Part shown: piece by piece, positions 55,795 through 64,000 of the stretch
Layout: every line of letters begins with the position of its first letter
How positions within the stretch are numbered: position 1 is the stretch's first letter
Origin: an uncultured Flavobacteriales bacterium
GTDB lineage: Bacteria; Bacteroidota; Bacteroidia; Flavobacteriales_E; Vicingaceae
Direction: 5' to 3'
Length of the DNA stretch: 64,000 bases
Assembly (NCBI GenBank): GCA_905479995.1
Contig: CAJQON010000024.1
Span: 1-64,000 of the forward strand
Position numbers and translations under genes: made by a program
The notes under the pieces: model-generated
Databases searched by the model: none
The model's input: the letters and a program-made list of their open reading frames with translations, nothing else
What the model was told of the DNA's origin: nothing

Positions 55795-56178
55795 ATGGTG
55801 TTGCCTACTAAAAATAAATCTATCAGAAACAAAAACTCTATCATTCAGGTTTTAGATAATGGCATATTGCATGTTTTATATCCAGAAGGAACTCAAATAG
55901 AAGTAGCCGATATTAAGGAATTGCAAACTCAGTTTAACAAACTGGATCCTAAACCCACAAAAGTAATACAAGAACTTCGGCCATATGTAAATATGACGAA
56001 TGAAGCTCGTAAATATGGAGCCGAACATTCTCCAGCACTAAAAGGAGTAGCCTATGTAATACATGGGTTGTCTCAGCGTTTGTTAGTACGGTTTTATATA
56101 AAAATGCTAAAACGCGACAAACCAACAAAGGTATTTGATGCTTTTAATGAGGCTTTAGCTTGGCTAGAAAAACTATAA
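55795..56178 (+). CDS. DUF7793-like small protein, copy 1
   Basis: 127 residues without signal. NGILHVLYPEGTQIEVADI, then VIQELRPYVNMTNEARKY, and the C-terminal VIHGLSQRLLVRFYIKML are the recognisable features. It is clearly paralogous to the 127-residue product on the other strand at 56180-56563 (shared GL-QRL--FY-K and AR-Y patterns). The fold looks like a STAS/SEC14-type alpha-beta domain; that is inference. DUF7793 assignment is from memory. Start chosen at ATG 55795; a TAnnTTTG-like element 1 bp upstream is unlikely to be its promoter. Confidence 0.6.
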   Translation: MVLPTKNKSIRNKNSIIQVLDNGILHVLYPEGTQIEVADIKELQTQFNKLDPKPTKVIQELRPYVNMTNEARKYGAEHSPALKGVAYVIHGLSQRLLVRFYIKMLKRDKPTKVFDAFNEALAWLEKL

Positions 56179-56179
56179 C

Positions 56180-56563
56180 TTAAAATGAATTAACCCATTT
56201 AATTGCATTTTTTACATTCCTAAAAACTTTTGAAGGGTGGTTGTGAGATTTAAATTTAAAGTAAAAAGATATAACCAAACGCTGTGCAAGGCCATCAATA
56301 ATTACAGCTTCACATATTGCCATTTCTTTATGTTTTTCAAGGTATTCACGAGCTTCTTGGGTTATGTTTGCTGCACGGCCAAATTCAACTATAACTTTTA
56401 GTGGACCATTAGAAATCTGCTTTTTATATTCATTAAATACAATTTCAATTTCCTTTGTACCAATTAAAGAATCCGGTTTGTAACGAGCGTAGAATATATC
56501 CTTTGCCGCTAAATGACAAATTACGCTTTCTGTTTCTATAGGGGTTGTAAATATTTCTACCAT
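56180..56563 (-). CDS. DUF7793-like small protein, copy 2 (convergent paralogue)
   Basis: 127 residues. It shares VEFGRAANITQEAREYLEKH and IDGLAQRLVISFYFKFKS with its neighbour, and the ends KVFRNVKNAIKWVNSF align with KVFDAFNEALAWLEKL of copy 1. The two genes are the same length, point at each other and are 1 bp apart. Function unknown; such proteins may bind or report a small ligand or partner. Confidence 0.6.
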   Translation of the reverse strand: MVEIFTTPIETESVICHLAAKDIFYARYKPDSLIGTKEIEIVFNEYKKQISNGPLKVIVEFGRAANITQEAREYLEKHKEMAICEAVIIDGLAQRLVISFYFKFKSHNHPSKVFRNVKNAIKWVNSF

Positions 56564-56641
56564 TAAATTTAATTAATGCTAATATAATATTTTTTTCAAA
56601 AGTTTTTAACTGGATATAATATATTATTAATACGCCTATTT

Positions 56642-56727
56642 AACATAATATTAATTATAAGACAAAACGATAGCTTTCTTTTATATAGTCGTTTGTAGTC
56701 GTTTAGTACTTATAATGTTTATTATGT
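56642..56727 (+). repeat. Palindromic element R1 (86 bp)
   Basis: Left end AACATAATATTAATTATAAG and right end CTTATAATGTTTATTATGT form long inverted ends. The 20-bp core ATTATAAGACAAAACGATAG (56654-56673) is identical in R2 and R3, as is the GTAGTCGTTTAG right-hand motif. R1 lacks the internal hairpin of R2 and R3. It marks the left edge of the accessory region. The 56564-57481 stretch between genes also holds the smaller repeats listed below and no coding sequence. Confidence 0.8.
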
Positions 56728-56784
56728 CTGCACCAAATAAAGGTTTGTAAGCTTTTATAAAAAGCAACAAAACTATTATTAGGT

Positions 56785-56815
56785 TTGCTTTGCTTTTTGG
56801 CAGCAAAGTAAATAG
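56785..56815 (+). repeat. 31-bp repeat shared after R1 and R2
   Basis: The sequence starting TTGCTTTGCTTTTTGGCAGC and ending AAGTAAATAG is identical at 61086-61116. It lies 58 bp after R1 and 18 bp after R2, so the repeat unit extends beyond the palindrome. Confidence 0.7.
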
Positions 56816-56877
56816 AACGCACAATCCAACGCTTCTTAAAATTGTGCTATAATGTACAATCGTACATCAATTTAAAA

Positions 56878-56946
56878 ATATGCGATTCTAAGCGATTAGT
56901 ATTTTTATAAGGTTTATCATTTTGATCTTATAATTAGTCATTATGT
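56878..56946 (+). repeat. Diverged fourth copy of the R element, right half
   Basis: ATGCGATT...GATCTTATAATTAG...CATTATG resembles the right end of R3 (63233-63271), with changes in between. It suggests decay or rearrangement of an additional copy next to R1. Confidence 0.45.
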
Positions 56947-57019
56947 AAAATTGCCGCACAAGGCTCAACATCTTTAAAAATTAATTCTTTTTCCAGCGCT
57001 CAAAAAATTTTATGATTGT

Positions 57020-57094
57020 AGTTTACTTGTATACGAAAAAATACGTTTGCCTTAATAAGGCTTTAACTTGTATTTTTCTATACTTGCGTAAACT
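57020..57094. repeat. Imperfect 75-bp palindrome
   Basis: AGTTTAC...CGAAAAAATAC at the left pairs with GTATTTTTC...GTAAACT at the right, with GCCTTAATAAGGC in the centre. It would fold into a long stem. It is noncoding and unlike R1-R3. Confidence 0.55.
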
Positions 57095-57107
57095 GGGTTT
57101 GTTTATT

Positions 57108-57150
57108 TGTTCTTTTTGCCTTGATGCAAAAGAACCAAAAAATCAAGATA
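57108..57150 (+). repeat. Bacteroidota-type dispersed repeat
   Basis: TTCTTTTTGCCTTGATGCAA followed by AAGAACCAAAAAATCAAGA is a degenerate form of a scattered intergenic repeat that I recognise from many Bacteroidota genomes; the two parts are mutually inverted (TTCTTTT... / ...AAGAA). It marks a site rich in repeats before the defence-like genes. Confidence 0.5.
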
Positions 57151-57481
57151 GCGTTAGATGTCCTGTGGACATATAAGCCTATGCTATCCACGCGCTCTGT
57201 ACAAATGCTAAAACAATACTAAAATAATTGTTTGCTCCGCAAACAAAAGGACAAGCCCCTTTTGTTTGTTTTTACGCATTTGTCCATTAGCTCACTCCTT
57301 ATTATTGTTTCGGGTGTTCGTGAACTCCAAAGAGATTGTTTGCCTACGGCTAACTCTCTTTGTTCGTTTCACAGGCCATCGCTGGCCCGCATTTCTTTCG
57401 GGCTTACGCACAATACCTTTATTATTATGTTAAATAGACTTCTTAATGTTTGTTTTCGTTCTTTATTGGTATAAGTTTAGC

Positions 57482-57489
57482 TAAATTTG
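57482..57489 (+). promoter_or_regulatory. Putative -7 element for the ATPase-HNH pair
   Basis: TAAATTTG matches TAnnTTTG and lies 27 bp before the ATG at 57517. A TTG start at 57487 falls inside it and is therefore rejected. Confidence 0.45.
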
Positions 57490-57516
57490 ATTGCAAAATC
57501 TTTATATCTTGAGTTT

Positions 57517-59763
57517 ATGGCAATACTTAATCACAATAATAATCAAATCCCAATATTTCCAGTTTATAAAAATGGAATAGATGCGCTTCACCTTAATAAA
57601 ACATTGATACAAGGTAAGCCCATCAAAGAAATCCCACCCGAAATATCAAATTTCAAACCGATAAGTAAATTAGATATATCAAATAATCAAATAGAGGTTT
57701 TACCAAAGGAATTATTTGAATTAACTAACCTAACTCTACTCTATTTTTATAATAACAAAATTAAGGAAGTACCAAGTGAAATTGGCCTTTTGACTAAGTT
57801 AACACATTTAAATATAAAGGATAATGATATTGAATTCCTTCCTCCAGAAATTTCTAACCTTAAACATTTAGTTCATTTTGATATTTCTAACACTAAACTT
57901 CCAAAACCACCTAATTACAAAGCGAATACACCTCAAGATACCATAAAATACATACTTGAAAACCAGGTTCTTCCAGTCCCTCCTGCTCCTCCAATTAGTT
58001 TTGATAAAGCATACTTTTTTAAAAATATTCAGAAAAAGAAAATTGAGGATAGGTTTAATGAAAAATTACTAGAATATTCAAAGGAAGTTGAAGTTCAATT
58101 TATTGATATACATTCCTTAGAGGATATTAATACTTCAATTAATATAATATTCATTCTATTACCATTCGATTCCCATGAAAATCATAGATTAGTTTTTGAT
58201 ATTCTAAAAAAATGTAAAGAGCTAAAAATTAATTTTTATGTTCTTTTACAAACTGGCTTTATTGAGCAAAGTTTTAGTTATATAAATCGTTTGGTTGGTG
58301 AAATAAACGAAAAAAATGAAACTGAAATTGAGGAAAACTATATTGATAGGACTCTAGAGTTTAGTTCTTATGATGAATTAAAAGGGAATATTCTTTCTGG
58401 ATTAAAACAACATAACCCTAAAGTAAGGTTAGAAAAACTGACCTTAATAAATATTGGACATTTCGAGCATATTGTGCTTGATTTTGATGAAGATATCACT
58501 TTATTAGTAGGAGAAAATGGAACTGGTAAGAGTACCATTTTGCGTTCTATCGGATTAGGTTTAATTGGTTCAAAACATAGAGGAGTTAAAACCGAAAATC
58601 TTGAATCTTTATTAAGGATTACGGGTATTGACGCTGACGGAAAATCATTATATGAAAAGGGATTAATTTCATTAGACTATTTCATTGATGGTGAAAAGCA
58701 CACTAATGAAATAACATTTATTCCCAATCCCGAAGGAACTTTTATTGATATTGTCGACTTAGAAAAATCTCAAATAGTTTCCGGAGAGTATAATTTGAAA
58801 TCACTTATTGTCGGTTTTCCACAATTAAGAAGTGAAATTATAAAATCCACAGTACCATCTACAAATAAAATTACTACTCCTAACATTAGTGATATATCTC
58901 CTATCATTTATTCAAATGAACAAGATTATAGATTAAACTCATTTATAAGCTGGATTGTAAATCTAGATGTTAAGGCGCTACAGGAGGAAGAAAAGCACGC
59001 ATCAAGTCCCGATGATGTAAAAAAGGACAATAAGGAACGAGCTATAATAGAAATGGTATTCAATATCATTTCATCAATAACAAAACATGATATATAATAT
59101 ATTAAAGTCAAAAATGCTTCTCCACCAGATGTTTGGGTATCAACTTATGACTCTCCTCATGGAGTTCCTTTGAGTATGGTGAGTCAAGGTTTCAAAATTA
59201 TTATGAGTTGGGTTGGATATTATTTGGAAAGAATAATTGAATCATTTCCTGCTTTAGGTGCTGCTGAAGCTATGATGCAACCAGCGATCTTAGTCTTAGA
59301 CGAAATTGACACTTCAATTCACCCTAAATGGCAAGCAGAATTCATAAGTATACTAAGGGATAACTTTACAAATACTCAATTCGTATTTAGTACTCACTCA
59401 CCATTAATTACATCTAGATTAAATAGGGAACAAATATTAGAATTGGAGTTGAATGAGGATAATGTTGTATCGTTAGTGAAAAATGGGATAGATACTTGGT
59501 CATTATCATATGATGATATTTTAAACAAAATTTTTAATACACAAGAACTTCCTCCACTCTACAATTTAGAACAGTTAGAGGATGAGTTAAAATTATTGGA
59601 TAAATCTGATGATAAAACAAAACACGAAATTCAGGAAAACATTAGAAGGTTGATAGAAAGTGAACAATATAAAGATCGACTGACTAAGTATGAAAATGAA
59701 CTAAAACAAAAGAAAATAGAATTGGATGATATTATCAAGGAACTCAAATCAAGTAAGAATTAA
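57517..59763 (+). pseudogene. LRR-ATPase, PtuA-like (Septu-type), interrupted by in-frame TAA
   Basis: The frame encodes 748 residues plus one internal TAA at 59095-59097. Order: leucine-rich repeats (about 25-130, e.g. ISKLDISNNQIEVLPKELF), a linker, an alpha-beta domain (about 170-310, VEVQFIDIHSLEDINTSINI), then an SMC/AAA-type ATPase with Walker A VGENGTGKST (about 331-340). After the TAA the same frame continues YIKVKNASPPDVWVSTYDSP and gives a signature-like LSMVSQGF, Walker B ILVLDEIDTS (about 591-600), the H-loop FSTHSPL and a C-terminal coiled coil. The stop separates Walker A from Walker B, so the enzyme works only by readthrough, by reassembly of two pieces (internal ATG at 59176) or not at all. 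The downstream HNH gene overlaps by 1 bp. PtuA of Septu is the closest match in context, but the LRR domain is not part of classical PtuA. Confidence 0.75.
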
Positions 59764-60557
59764 TGCATTTTTTTGATCGTACCCAATTTCATTCAAAGCC
59801 TACCTCTAGGCTAAAATCCTTGCATGATTCTCAACAATCAAAATGGCTTGCCTATAAGGCTTATCTGTTAGAAAAAGAAAGTTATATATCTAAAGGTAAA
59901 ATTGGTGCAGCTCCAAAAACAGTTAATTCACCAACTGGTTATTGGACAGAGGATGTGATTAGAGAGCCATTGAAAGATAATTTTGATTCAAACTGTGCGT
60001 ATTGCGGTATATATTGCGATGATGAGAGAGATGGTCAGGTAGATCATTATTTCCCAAAATCATGTGATAAAAATGCTGATCACATCTATAGTTGGGAAAA
60101 TTATGTTTGGTCGTGCCCTTCATGTAATAACAAAAAAGATAATTTTTATTATGTACTAGACCCATGCTCACAAATCGACATGAATAATGTGTTATTTAAT
60201 CCGACAAATGGTAAATATCAATTAGATAGAAATGCTCCTGATGCTATTTCTAGGAAATTCGATTTAACTGATTTAAAGACTTTTATGAATGGTAAAAAAC
60301 GCCATAAATCACGAAGACTTATATACAAACAAATGAAAACCATTTATTTGGCTAAAATTAGAGAGTGTAAAGAGTTACTGCCTTTGCTTTCTGCAGGTAC
60401 AAAAGTACATATAGAAATAACTTCAAATTTAGTTGCCGCGGAAGCTGATTTAAAAGAATTCATTCAAGAGCCTAATTTCATAGGCCTTAAGAGAAAAATA
60501 TTTAATAGATATAAATCAGATTATTTAATTACAAATACTTTTGAGGATTACATTTGA
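59763..60557 (+). CDS. HNH endonuclease, PtuB-like
   Basis: 264 residues, starting inside the ATPase stop (TAATG). The HNH core is CAYCGIYC...QVDHYFPKS...WSCPSCNNKK: C78-x2-C81 and C118-x2-C121 hold structural zinc, D94-H95 is the catalytic pair and N122/N123 the metal-binding end. This matches the TIGR02646-type nuclease used as PtuB in Septu and in retron-linked systems. With the ATPase it would cut DNA or tRNA on phage infection; the target is not known. All catalytic residues are intact, in contrast to the ATPase. Confidence 0.85.
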   Translation: MHFFDRTQFHSKPTSRLKSLHDSQQSKWLAYKAYLLEKESYISKGKIGAAPKTVNSPTGYWTEDVIREPLKDNFDSNCAYCGIYCDDERDGQVDHYFPKSCDKNADHIYSWENYVWSCPSCNNKKDNFYYVLDPCSQIDMNNVLFNPTNGKYQLDRNAPDAISRKFDLTDLKTFMNGKKRHKSRRLIYKQMKTIYLAKIRECKELLPLLSAGTKVHIEITSNLVAAEADLKEFIQEPNFIGLKRKIFNRYKSDYLITNTFEDYI

Positions 60558-60943
60558 AGCTTTTTCTAATTTAAATAGACTTAAGATTTACTAAGGCTAA
60601 TCTAAATTATTGGGGCGTGTCCTTAAAAGGTCGGGCTATTCGCATTACGCGATAATTGCTTCAAATAAGCGAAGCGATCCACGAATACAATAACAAAACA
60701 ATAGCAAATAATGAGTAATCCCTCACGCAGCATCTAAATAAGTAAATACAAAACACCTCTTCTACTCTATTTTAAGTGTTTGGTCTTTACCCATTTATCG
60801 CTTTACTTAAGCGGTATTGTAAGAGTTGTCCATTTATTTGTAGTGAAACGGGTAGTATAAATCTCCAACACTTACGCTTTAATAAACCATAAAATTTGAT
60901 CTCCCGCCCTTTAAGAATAAATCCTTAAAGCCCTAAGCTAAGT
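60558..60943. other. Noncoding stretch with degenerate intergenic repeats
   Basis: No gene is supported. It contains GGGGCGTGTCCTTAAAAGGT followed by CGGGCTATTCGC, a form of another intergenic repeat that I recognise from Bacteroidota, and some short inverted pairs. It leads into R2. Confidence 0.4.
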
Positions 60944-61068
60944 AACATAATGCAATACATTATAAGACAAAACGATAGTTTTGTTATTTAATGGTTTTAT
61001 AGCATATATTGCAGCTTTACAGCTAATATGCGTTTGTAGTCGTTTAGATCTTATAATGTTTATTATGT
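60944..61068 (+). repeat. Palindromic element R2 (125 bp)
   Basis: It carries the same core as R1 at 60959-60978 and the right part GTAGTCGTTTAGATCTTATAAT, with outer ends AACATAAT / ATTATGT. Inside is a hairpin GCATATATTGCAGCT-TTAC-AGCTAATATGC also found in R3. It separates the PtuAB-like pair from the T9SS gene. Confidence 0.85.
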
Positions 61069-61085
61069 CTGCGTTCGTTCCTCAC

Positions 61086-61116
61086 TTGCTTTGCTTTTTG
61101 GCAGCAAAGTAAATAG
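61086..61116 (+). repeat. 31-bp repeat, second copy
   Basis: Identical to 56785-56815. It follows R2 by 18 bp and lies in the 160 bp between R2 and the T9SS gene, which has no other feature seen. Confidence 0.7.
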
Positions 61117-61228
61117 ATTGCAACATTCCGAAGCAGTTGGTCGGCTATTTGTTGGGATTCGTCTAAAAAAATAAGGTTACTGACCAAATTCCACGTATTA
61201 TTAACCAAATTTCATGTAATATTACCCT

Positions 61229-63091
61229 ATGCTACGTATACCATTAGTTATAATATTTAGCCTTTTTCTAGGTTTGTCTATGGGACAAACGGGTCCTGGA
61301 GGTGTTGGTAGTGTTGCTTCTAATGGTTTGTGGCTACGAGCAGACAACCTCTCCTTGAACAACAACGACCCTGTTGTAACATGGAATGATGCTTCTGGCA
61401 ATACCAATAACGCTACTGCTGCTGCAACAGAACAACCATTATTTATCTCATCTAGTGCTTTTAACAATATGCCTGCCATTAGGTTTGATGGCAACAACGA
61501 CATTATGACGGTTGCAGATGCTGCAATACTAGACGGATCTACTGGCTTAACCTATTTTGCAGTTTTAAGACCCAATAATTTAGACAACTCACCACGACCA
61601 ATTATGGGGAAACGACTAGCTTATACCAGTACAGATTATGCCTACACCTGGTTCTTTTTCAGTAACAACTACCTCAACCTTGATCTTAACACTTCCAACA
61701 ACAGATTTGATACCAACCCTACCGCTTTTAGCAACGCAACCAACTACTTGCTATCGTTTAACTACGATGGATCCTTAACCCCTTCACAACGTTCAAAAAT
61801 ATACACTTCCGGCACATTAAATTCAACCTCTACCGAATCTTCTTCCACTATCCTTAACTCTTCGGCAGATTTAATTATAGGTACTTTAAATGCTAGCGAC
61901 CCAAGACAGCTTGGAGCTGACTATGCAGAGCTTATCCAGTTCAATTTTTCTTTAAACACATCACAAACCATTCTAGTTAACAATTACCTATCGGCTAAAT
62001 ACAACATTGCTTTAACTTCAAACGATTTGTACGATGAAGATGACAATGGCGATTATGATTATGATGTTACTGGTATTGGAAGAACTTCTGCTACGGATTT
62101 GAATAATGATGGTCAAGGATCGGGAATGGTTAGAATACTAAACCCTTCAGATTTAGATGACGATGAATTTTTAATTTGGGGGCACGACAATGGTTTGGCA
62201 CAAGCACAAGAAAGTACGGATGTTCCGACTAGTGTTGCAAGTAGATTTGTTAGGGTTTGGAGAGCAAGCGAGGTAAATACTTCAGTTAGCGCAATTGATG
62301 TAGGCGATCTTGACATTCGTTTTGACCTATCTAACCTAGGTGTAATTAATGCTTTAGATTTGAGGTTATTAATTGATGTAGACAATGATGGAGTTTTTGC
62401 GGATGAAACACCAATAGCTGGAGCAACCAATGTTGGCGGCAATGTTTATCAATTTGCCGGAGTTGATGGAGATAGCCTTTCCAATAACAGGCGTTTTACT
62501 ATTGCTACTATTGATAAAATAGAGACGCCACTTCCAATTGAACTGTTAAGTTTTACTGCCAATATAAATGAGGACAAAGTAGACTTAAAATGGATTACAA
62601 TTACCGAGGTAAATAACAAGTTTTTTACCATAGAAAGAAGTGCCAATGGAAGTGTTTGGGAAGATGTGGCTATGGTTGCTGGAGAAAGAAACAGCTCGAG
62701 TTATATCGAATATATGGATGTTGATTATAATCCTTACGAGGGAGTTTCTTACTATCGATTAAAGCAAACTGATTTTGATGGCAAATACACCTACTCCAAT
62801 GTAGTCCCTGTTAATTTTGTAGCAAAGGGCAATGGATCAATTAACCTATTCCCTAACCCAGTACAGGCTGGCGAATCAATCAACATTTCTTTTGATGATG
62901 TATCAGGTACTGAAGTGCTCGTTGTACTTCAAGATATTGTTGGAAAAGAATACTACACTAAGCTTATTGTAAATGTTAATGAAGGTGAATTGATTGCTCT
63001 ATCTATCGACAGCGAAATTCCTGCTGGAATATATTTAATAACGGCTTCTTCTAACAATTCTATGTATAGCCAAAAGTTGATTGTTAGATAA
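61229..63091 (+). CDS. LamG-like T9SS surface protein in the repeat-bounded region
   Basis: 620 residues. A signal peptide ends near SMGQ. A LamG/concanavalin-like domain follows (about 25-260, with LWLRADNLS, VTWNDASGN and IRFDGNNDIMTV), then a domain with YDVTGIGRTSATDLNNDGQG and FLIWGHDNG found in many Bacteroidota surface proteins, a fibronectin-like part and a T9SS type A sorting domain (INLFPNPVQAGES, GIYLITASSN). It lies alone between R2 and R3. Codon use looks similar to the rest. Ligand unknown. Confidence 0.82.
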   Translation: MLRIPLVIIFSLFLGLSMGQTGPGGVGSVASNGLWLRADNLSLNNNDPVVTWNDASGNTNNATAAATEQPLFISSSAFNNMPAIRFDGNNDIMTVADAAILDGSTGLTYFAVLRPNNLDNSPRPIMGKRLAYTSTDYAYTWFFFSNNYLNLDLNTSNNRFDTNPTAFSNATNYLLSFNYDGSLTPSQRSKIYTSGTLNSTSTESSSTILNSSADLIIGTLNASDPRQLGADYAELIQFNFSLNTSQTILVNNYLSAKYNIALTSNDLYDEDDNGDYDYDVTGIGRTSATDLNNDGQGSGMVRILNPSDLDDDEFLIWGHDNGLAQAQESTDVPTSVASRFVRVWRASEVNTSVSAIDVGDLDIRFDLSNLGVINALDLRLLIDVDNDGVFADETPIAGATNVGGNVYQFAGVDGDSLSNNRRFTIATIDKIETPLPIELLSFTANINEDKVDLKWITITEVNNKFFTIERSANGSVWEDVAMVAGERNSSSYIEYMDVDYNPYEGVSYYRLKQTDFDGKYTYSNVVPVNFVAKGNGSINLFPNPVQAGESINISFDDVSGTEVLVVLQDIVGKEYYTKLIVNVNEGELIALSIDSEIPAGIYLITASSNNSMYSQKLIVR

Positions 63092-63160
63092 TAACTAAAA
63101 AGATAGTGAAGGAATAGACACTACCCCTCCCACCAAACTTATTGAACATATTGCTTGTAG

Positions 63161-63260
63161 CATTATAAGACAAAACGATAGTTTTGTTATTTAAAGGTAT
63201 TATGGCATATATTGAAGCTTTACAGCTAATATGCGATTGTAGTCGTTTAGATCTTATAAT
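63161..63260 (+). repeat. Palindromic element R3 (100 bp)
   Basis: It carries ATTATAAGACAAAACGATAG at 63162-63181, the internal hairpin GCATATATTGAAGCT-TTAC-AGCTAATATGC and the right end GTAGTCGTTTAGATCTTATAAT. It is the same orientation as R1 and R2. The 63092-63301 gap holds nothing else. Confidence 0.85.
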
Positions 63261-63301
63261 TAGACATTATGCTAAATAACCCGTGGTAGTAAATTGTGGT
63301 T

Positions 63302-64000
63302 TTATCGCACATCTAATAGATTAGCTTTTGAAGAAGTTTCTAAAATAGTCTTTAGTTGGTCAGGTATAGCAAAGTGTATAGAAATCATTTCAAAGCTTCC
63401 TCTATAAACCTCTGCATCATGTGATATGCCTATATTAATTATCATATAATCTTCTTTTACATCTCCAAAAGAAAAGGAATAAAAATCTAATGAATATTGA
63501 GCTTCTACATTCATGAAAAACTTACCTCTTAATTGTGATAAATTATTGGTGTTGGCTGGATTGACATAATTCAAAATAAACTCATTATTGATTAATACTT
63601 CAAATAATTCTTCTTCACTAAAAAAATCTAAAAGGCTGAAGTTTTTTTTAGTTTCAATATTATATGTGGTGAAACCTACTCCGTATGATGGATGAGCTCC
63701 CCCCTCAGAATAATACTCATATCTATATGATATATATGGACCAACAATAGATAAAATGGATGAGTTTTCAATGGTTTTATAATGTTGCCCTGTAGAGATT
63801 ATATCATTAAATAATTTGGGGCTTGTTGATTTTAATTCCTCGATCTTAATCATTGATATTTTTAAACCTTCTGGTGTTAAATAATACTCATCATCAATAT
63901 CATGAAATATGGTGTCATTTATCTGTTTTTCATTATTAAATACAATTAAAAGGCTATCTGAAATATGAACATCATGGCCATTATATTTATAGTTGACCTT
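63302..64000 (-). CDS. DUF3298-like protein, C-terminal part (runs off window)
   Basis: The reverse frame is open from the stop at 63302 to the window edge, 232 residues, so the start lies outside. An internal ATG at 63853 is not likely to be the true start because coding-like sequence continues upstream of it. The segment YYSEGGAHPSYGVGFTTYNI, then KKNFSLLDFFSEEELFEVL, is like the C-terminal domain of DUF3298/RsiV-type proteins, which are often periplasmic. The N-terminus would decide between a secreted and a membrane form. Confidence 0.65.
   Translation of the reverse strand, partial: KVNYKYNGHDVHISDSLLIVFNNEKQINDTIFHDIDDEYYLTPEGLKISMIKIEELKSTSPKLFNDIISTGQHYKTIENSSILSIVGPYISYRYEYYSEGGAHPSYGVGFTTYNIETKKNFSLLDFFSEEELFEVLINNEFILNYVNPANTNNLSQLRGKFFMNVEAQYSLDFYSFSFGDVKEDYMIINIGISHDAEVYRGSFEMISIHFAIPDQLKTILETSSKANLLDVR

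Follow-up and report, generated by a model that had tools for sequence, protein, structure and literature searches.

Organization of the locus

The window, that is the whole stretch of 64,000 nucleotides from an uncultured Flavobacteriales bacterium analyzed here, carries on its forward strand a gene coding for a leucine-rich repeat (LRR) - alpha/beta - PtuA-like ATPase with one in-frame stop (57517..59763), followed by a complete gene coding for a PtuB-like HNH nuclease of 264 amino acids (59763..60557). The ATPase start was placed at ATG 57517 by alignment with intact relatives, TTG 57487 being a possible upstream start. From 57487 to 59763, this frame contains a single internal stop in 758 codons, a premature TAA at 59095..59097, against 30 to 112 stops in each of the other five frames over the same stretch, and neither a second lesion nor a frameshift was detected in it. 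The encoded protein begins with an LRR domain (57517..57933; Pfam LRR_14, LRR_8 and LRR_4), in which alignment gaps indicate that, compared with the relatives, about one to two repeats are missing, followed by a middle alpha/beta domain of flavodoxin/TIR-like type without a Pfam family match (57934..58428).

In the ATPase part, the Walker A motif GENGTGKS (58510..58533, approximately residues 332-339 counted from ATG 57517) lies upstream of the stop, while the ABC-type signature region PLSMVSQGFK (59167..59196), located just after it, the Walker B region AILVLDEID (59284..59310, with ILVLDE at approximately residues 591-596) and the switch His all lie downstream. The initial annotation had placed a single TAA between Walker A and Walker B, and both the positions and the motif residues agree with that description. 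It had also regarded the frame on the two sides of the stop as one continuous ATPase, which is borne out by Pfam AAA_21, matched as one domain over residues 337-641 of the read-through translation (E 7e-18), whereas the two halves taken separately cover just the corresponding parts of the profile. Translation stopping at the TAA gives a chain of 526 residues, which lacks the signature motif and Walker B, so that a complete ATPase cannot be made from the sequence as it stands.

The HNH gene follows without any spacer, its ATG overlapping the ATPase stop (TAATG) so that it begins on the last base of this stop. Its catalytic residues are intact, as previously proposed: the V-D-H motif, two Asn and the CxxC pairs are all kept and common to both intact relatives, and the Pfam HNH profile is matched above its cut-off for 59763-60557. 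The more precise designation of the protein as PtuB of family TIGR02646 holds in part, since the score of 32.9 bits falls below the cut-off of 52.15 for that family, but the PADLOC PtuB models do match (E 1.4e-20).

Intact relatives

Searches of whole genomes and contigs retrieved two independent intact loci, one from a groundwater Bacteroidetes MAG (L026, to which the G040/L003 copy is identical) and the other from a Bacteroidales MAG (L025). The window ATPase is about 39-41% identical to these relatives from other Bacteroidota, in which the ATPase is a single ORF of 769-774 amino acids with the HNH gene directly after it, and the order LRR - alpha/beta - ATPase then HNH is thus common to the three loci. 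In the alignment of the window protein with the two relatives, the column of the stop is occupied by Ser in both of them, without gaps around it. A split of the homologues at the same site was considered and rejected, since both relatives are single ORFs. The TAATG overlap is also found in the Bacteroidales locus, while the groundwater locus has a one-base gap between the genes. With the overlap present in two loci, the overlapping start may couple translation of the ATPase and the HNH protein.

The distribution of the module is patchy: no other copy was found among 13 other members of the genus, the other genomes of the family that were searched yielded one copy, the groundwater one already mentioned, and the source genome contains no other PtuA-like match. 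Besides, the Bacteroidales pair adjoins a type ISP restriction-modification gene, which is typical defence-island company. A phage or viral origin was considered and set aside, no full-length match being present in viral contigs or phages, and so was a plasmid origin, as plasmids gave no full-length match and only the ATPase part was matched, at 22-29%.

Nature and age of the stop

The initial annotation had left three options for the interrupted ATPase, namely recent inactivation, readthrough of the stop, and production in two pieces. The last one would involve a chain of residues 1-526 carrying Walker A together with a restarted C-terminal chain carrying Walker B. Split ABC/SMC-type heads can work in this way, both halves are conserved equally, in-frame starts exist at TTG 59170 and ATG 59176, and the TAATG overlap suggests that the operon uses coupled translation. 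Such an arrangement nevertheless appears improbable: the two relatives are both unsplit, the stop coincides with no start codon and is followed by the first in-frame ones after 72-78 nt, the stretch upstream of these codons contains only 15% A versus 50% at the HNH start, and a chain begun there would be missing the conserved residues that directly precede the signature motif. A re-start at ATG 59176 is thus unsupported. Programmed readthrough yielding a full-length ATPase would agree with the open frame before and after the stop, but is very improbable, given that the relatives have an uninterrupted frame, that the local RNA around the stop is no more structured than shuffled sequences (z +0.5) and hence offers no recoding structure, and that the TAA is followed by T. 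In E. coli, this TAA-T context terminates translation strongly.

The intact relatives and the single lesion make recent inactivation the best of these three options, and the divergence of the window copy provides an estimate of its age. Counted at the positions where both relatives agree, the window ATPase differs at 39% before the stop versus 45% after it (Fisher p 0.38), and the window HNH protein at 46%. There is consequently no apparent sign, at the sequence level, of relaxed constraint past the stop, and this equal divergence on the two sides implies that the loss would be recent. In addition, approximately 4.6% of random substitutions in the ATPase frame would make a stop, so that a neutral divergence of 3% would be expected to produce a further stop with about 96% probability; as no second stop is present, neutral change since the first one would be below roughly 2-3%. 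Such a low divergence is compatible with a nonsense mutation that arose recently, with a polymorphism and with a base error of the assembly alike.

A base error in a draft or metagenome assembly, the gene being intact in the living cell, is an alternative explanation, and a search for another genome of this strain, with which the base could be compared, found none. The genome is a draft of 59 contigs, the stop site lies in an AT-rich stretch (ATATATAATATATT), and a lone substitution-type difference in an otherwise intact gene has the look of an error. This explanation is unlikely all the same, as a short-read consensus rarely has substitution errors and as the other genes of the window, read by eye, show no obvious interruption, which indicates that the error rate is not high. 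Conversely, downstream of the stop and in the HNH protein alike, every active residue is conserved, which speaks against gene loss and would fit a gene that is still used. Weighing these data, a single recent nonsense mutation, arisen in this genome or population, has probably deprived the Septu-like two-gene module of its ATPase. The stop itself would then be ordinary gene loss, defence genes being often lost, and no special mechanism is needed to account for it.

The N-terminal LRR and alpha/beta domains

The approximately 300 N-terminal residues of the ATPase, made up of the LRR domain and the TIR/flavodoxin-like alpha/beta domain, were absent from the initial annotation. Among the PADLOC PtuA matches listed, the best stretches all lie inside the ATPase part and none covers the N-terminus. 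Fold prediction for the full-length groundwater relative gave a confident LRR part and a poor ATPase part (mean pLDDT 57), while the model of residues 150-312 reached a pLDDT of 72; with this model, VIA-align gave its best Z score, 10.5, to a plant TIR, but other Rossmann-like folds scored equally well. Inspected by eye, the three sequences do not share the Glu found near the position expected for TIR catalysis. Assignment of the middle domain to a known family was attempted and gave no Pfam match for the window copy. Weak profile matches to this domain in other genomes did not provide supported relatives either; of two such loci that were read, one is that of a receiver-domain kinase.

From its sequence, the LRR-bearing pair appears to be a divergent Septu-like variant, possibly sensing through the predicted LRR. 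Going one step further, we tentatively view the family as a retron-free, NLR-like Septu variant, in which the LRR and the TIR/flavodoxin-like domain of PtuA would sense infection and license the HNH nuclease, a reading that is plausible though somewhat short of an even chance. No literature joining LRRs with Septu was found, in a search that was incomplete, hence novelty is not proven. The architecture is more useful than the stop: by means of an LRR-carrying PtuA and its HNH partner, it could be tested whether the variable N-terminal region serves PtuA-type ATPases as their sensor module.

Surroundings of the module

Several repeats were noticed around the module. A structured repeat of about 100 nt, located at 56654-56731, 60958-61057 and 63161-63260, flanks the defence pair together with the gene that follows; it has complementary ends (ATTATAAG...CTTATAAT), its two full copies are 95% identical, it folds better than shuffled sequences (z -2.1 to -3.5) and almost no further copies exist in the genome. 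It is possibly a mobile or recombination element. An integron cassette, suggested by these flanking structured repeats, was considered and rejected, no match in the genome exceeding the integron integrase cut-off. Besides, a 37-nt direct repeat (95%) is present on both sides of the module (56785-56821 and 61086-61122), which supports an insertion or duplication around it.

The intergenic region downstream of the module (60722-60896) has a counterpart of 85% identity at one site of contig C43 in the source genome, and a second piece resembling the upstream flank of the module lies there too. Further upstream, 55795-56178 and 56180-56563 are two adjacent, facing DUF7793 (SpoIIAA-like) genes, and in another genome of the genus (G005) three consecutive DUF7793 genes adjoin the same S4 and pseudouridine-synthase genes. 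The G+C content of the module (57487-60557) is 29.8% versus 33.8% for the whole window, consistent with a foreign origin.

Proposed mode of action and state of the window copy

In the intact form, the first gene would give one protein combining the LRR, the flavodoxin/TIR-like alpha/beta domain and the PtuA-type ABC ATPase, and the second one the HNH nuclease. By analogy with PtuAB, an oligomer of the ATPase would hold or license the nuclease, the LRR region would presumably receive an infection signal, and the signalled complex would, again as in PtuAB, cut nucleic acid so that phage growth stops. In the window copy, the HNH protein would probably be present at a lower level and be inactive without its ATPase partner: with the HNH start overlapping the ATPase stop, premature termination is expected to reduce HNH translation as well. 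The initial annotation had raised the concern that an intact nuclease beside a broken ATPase might be toxic. This concern is weakened by retron-Eco7, in which neither PtuA alone nor PtuB alone caused growth arrest, whereas both together did (PMC11555353), and in Septu EcB88, which requires intact Walker A/B and HNH motifs, Walker mutations and HNH mutations each abolished defence (PMC13096335). Transferred by analogy to the divergent pair of the window, these data suggest that, next to the broken ATPase, the nuclease is most likely silent.

Comparison with Septu and retron systems

The assignment of the pair as a Septu-like ATPase and HNH nuclease is supported by PADLOC models and by alignment with a solved PtuA. 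As in Septu, an ABC-type ATPase gene is directly followed by an HNH gene; the PADLOC PtuA model is matched with an E of 4e-43, the window ATPase aligns in two stretches with PtuA of structure 8ee4 (E 6e-24), and, when the frame is translated through the stop, it contains the Walker A, signature and Walker B motifs as well as the switch His. It differs from Septu by the approximately 300 extra N-terminal residues with their LRR and alpha/beta domain, by an HNH protein under the TIGR02646 cut-off and by the broken state of the ATPase. Since the NCBIfam cut-offs are not reached, the pair is best described as divergent and Septu-like rather than as a certified Septu member.

The type I-A retrons (Eco7/Ec78, Ec83), whose effectors are PtuAB, share the ATPase and HNH pair, and the ATPase chains of retron Ec78 (9vh1) align with the window ATPase at an E of 1e-22, but the latter scores 135.8 bits against the cut-off of 500 for NF041760. 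No reverse transcriptase was found among the neighbouring ORFs of the window pair or of the pairs of the two relatives, and a retron RNA was sought in 56000-64000 without any Rfam match. In retrons, the sensor role that the N-terminus of PtuA may hold is supplied separately, by the reverse transcriptase and msDNA.
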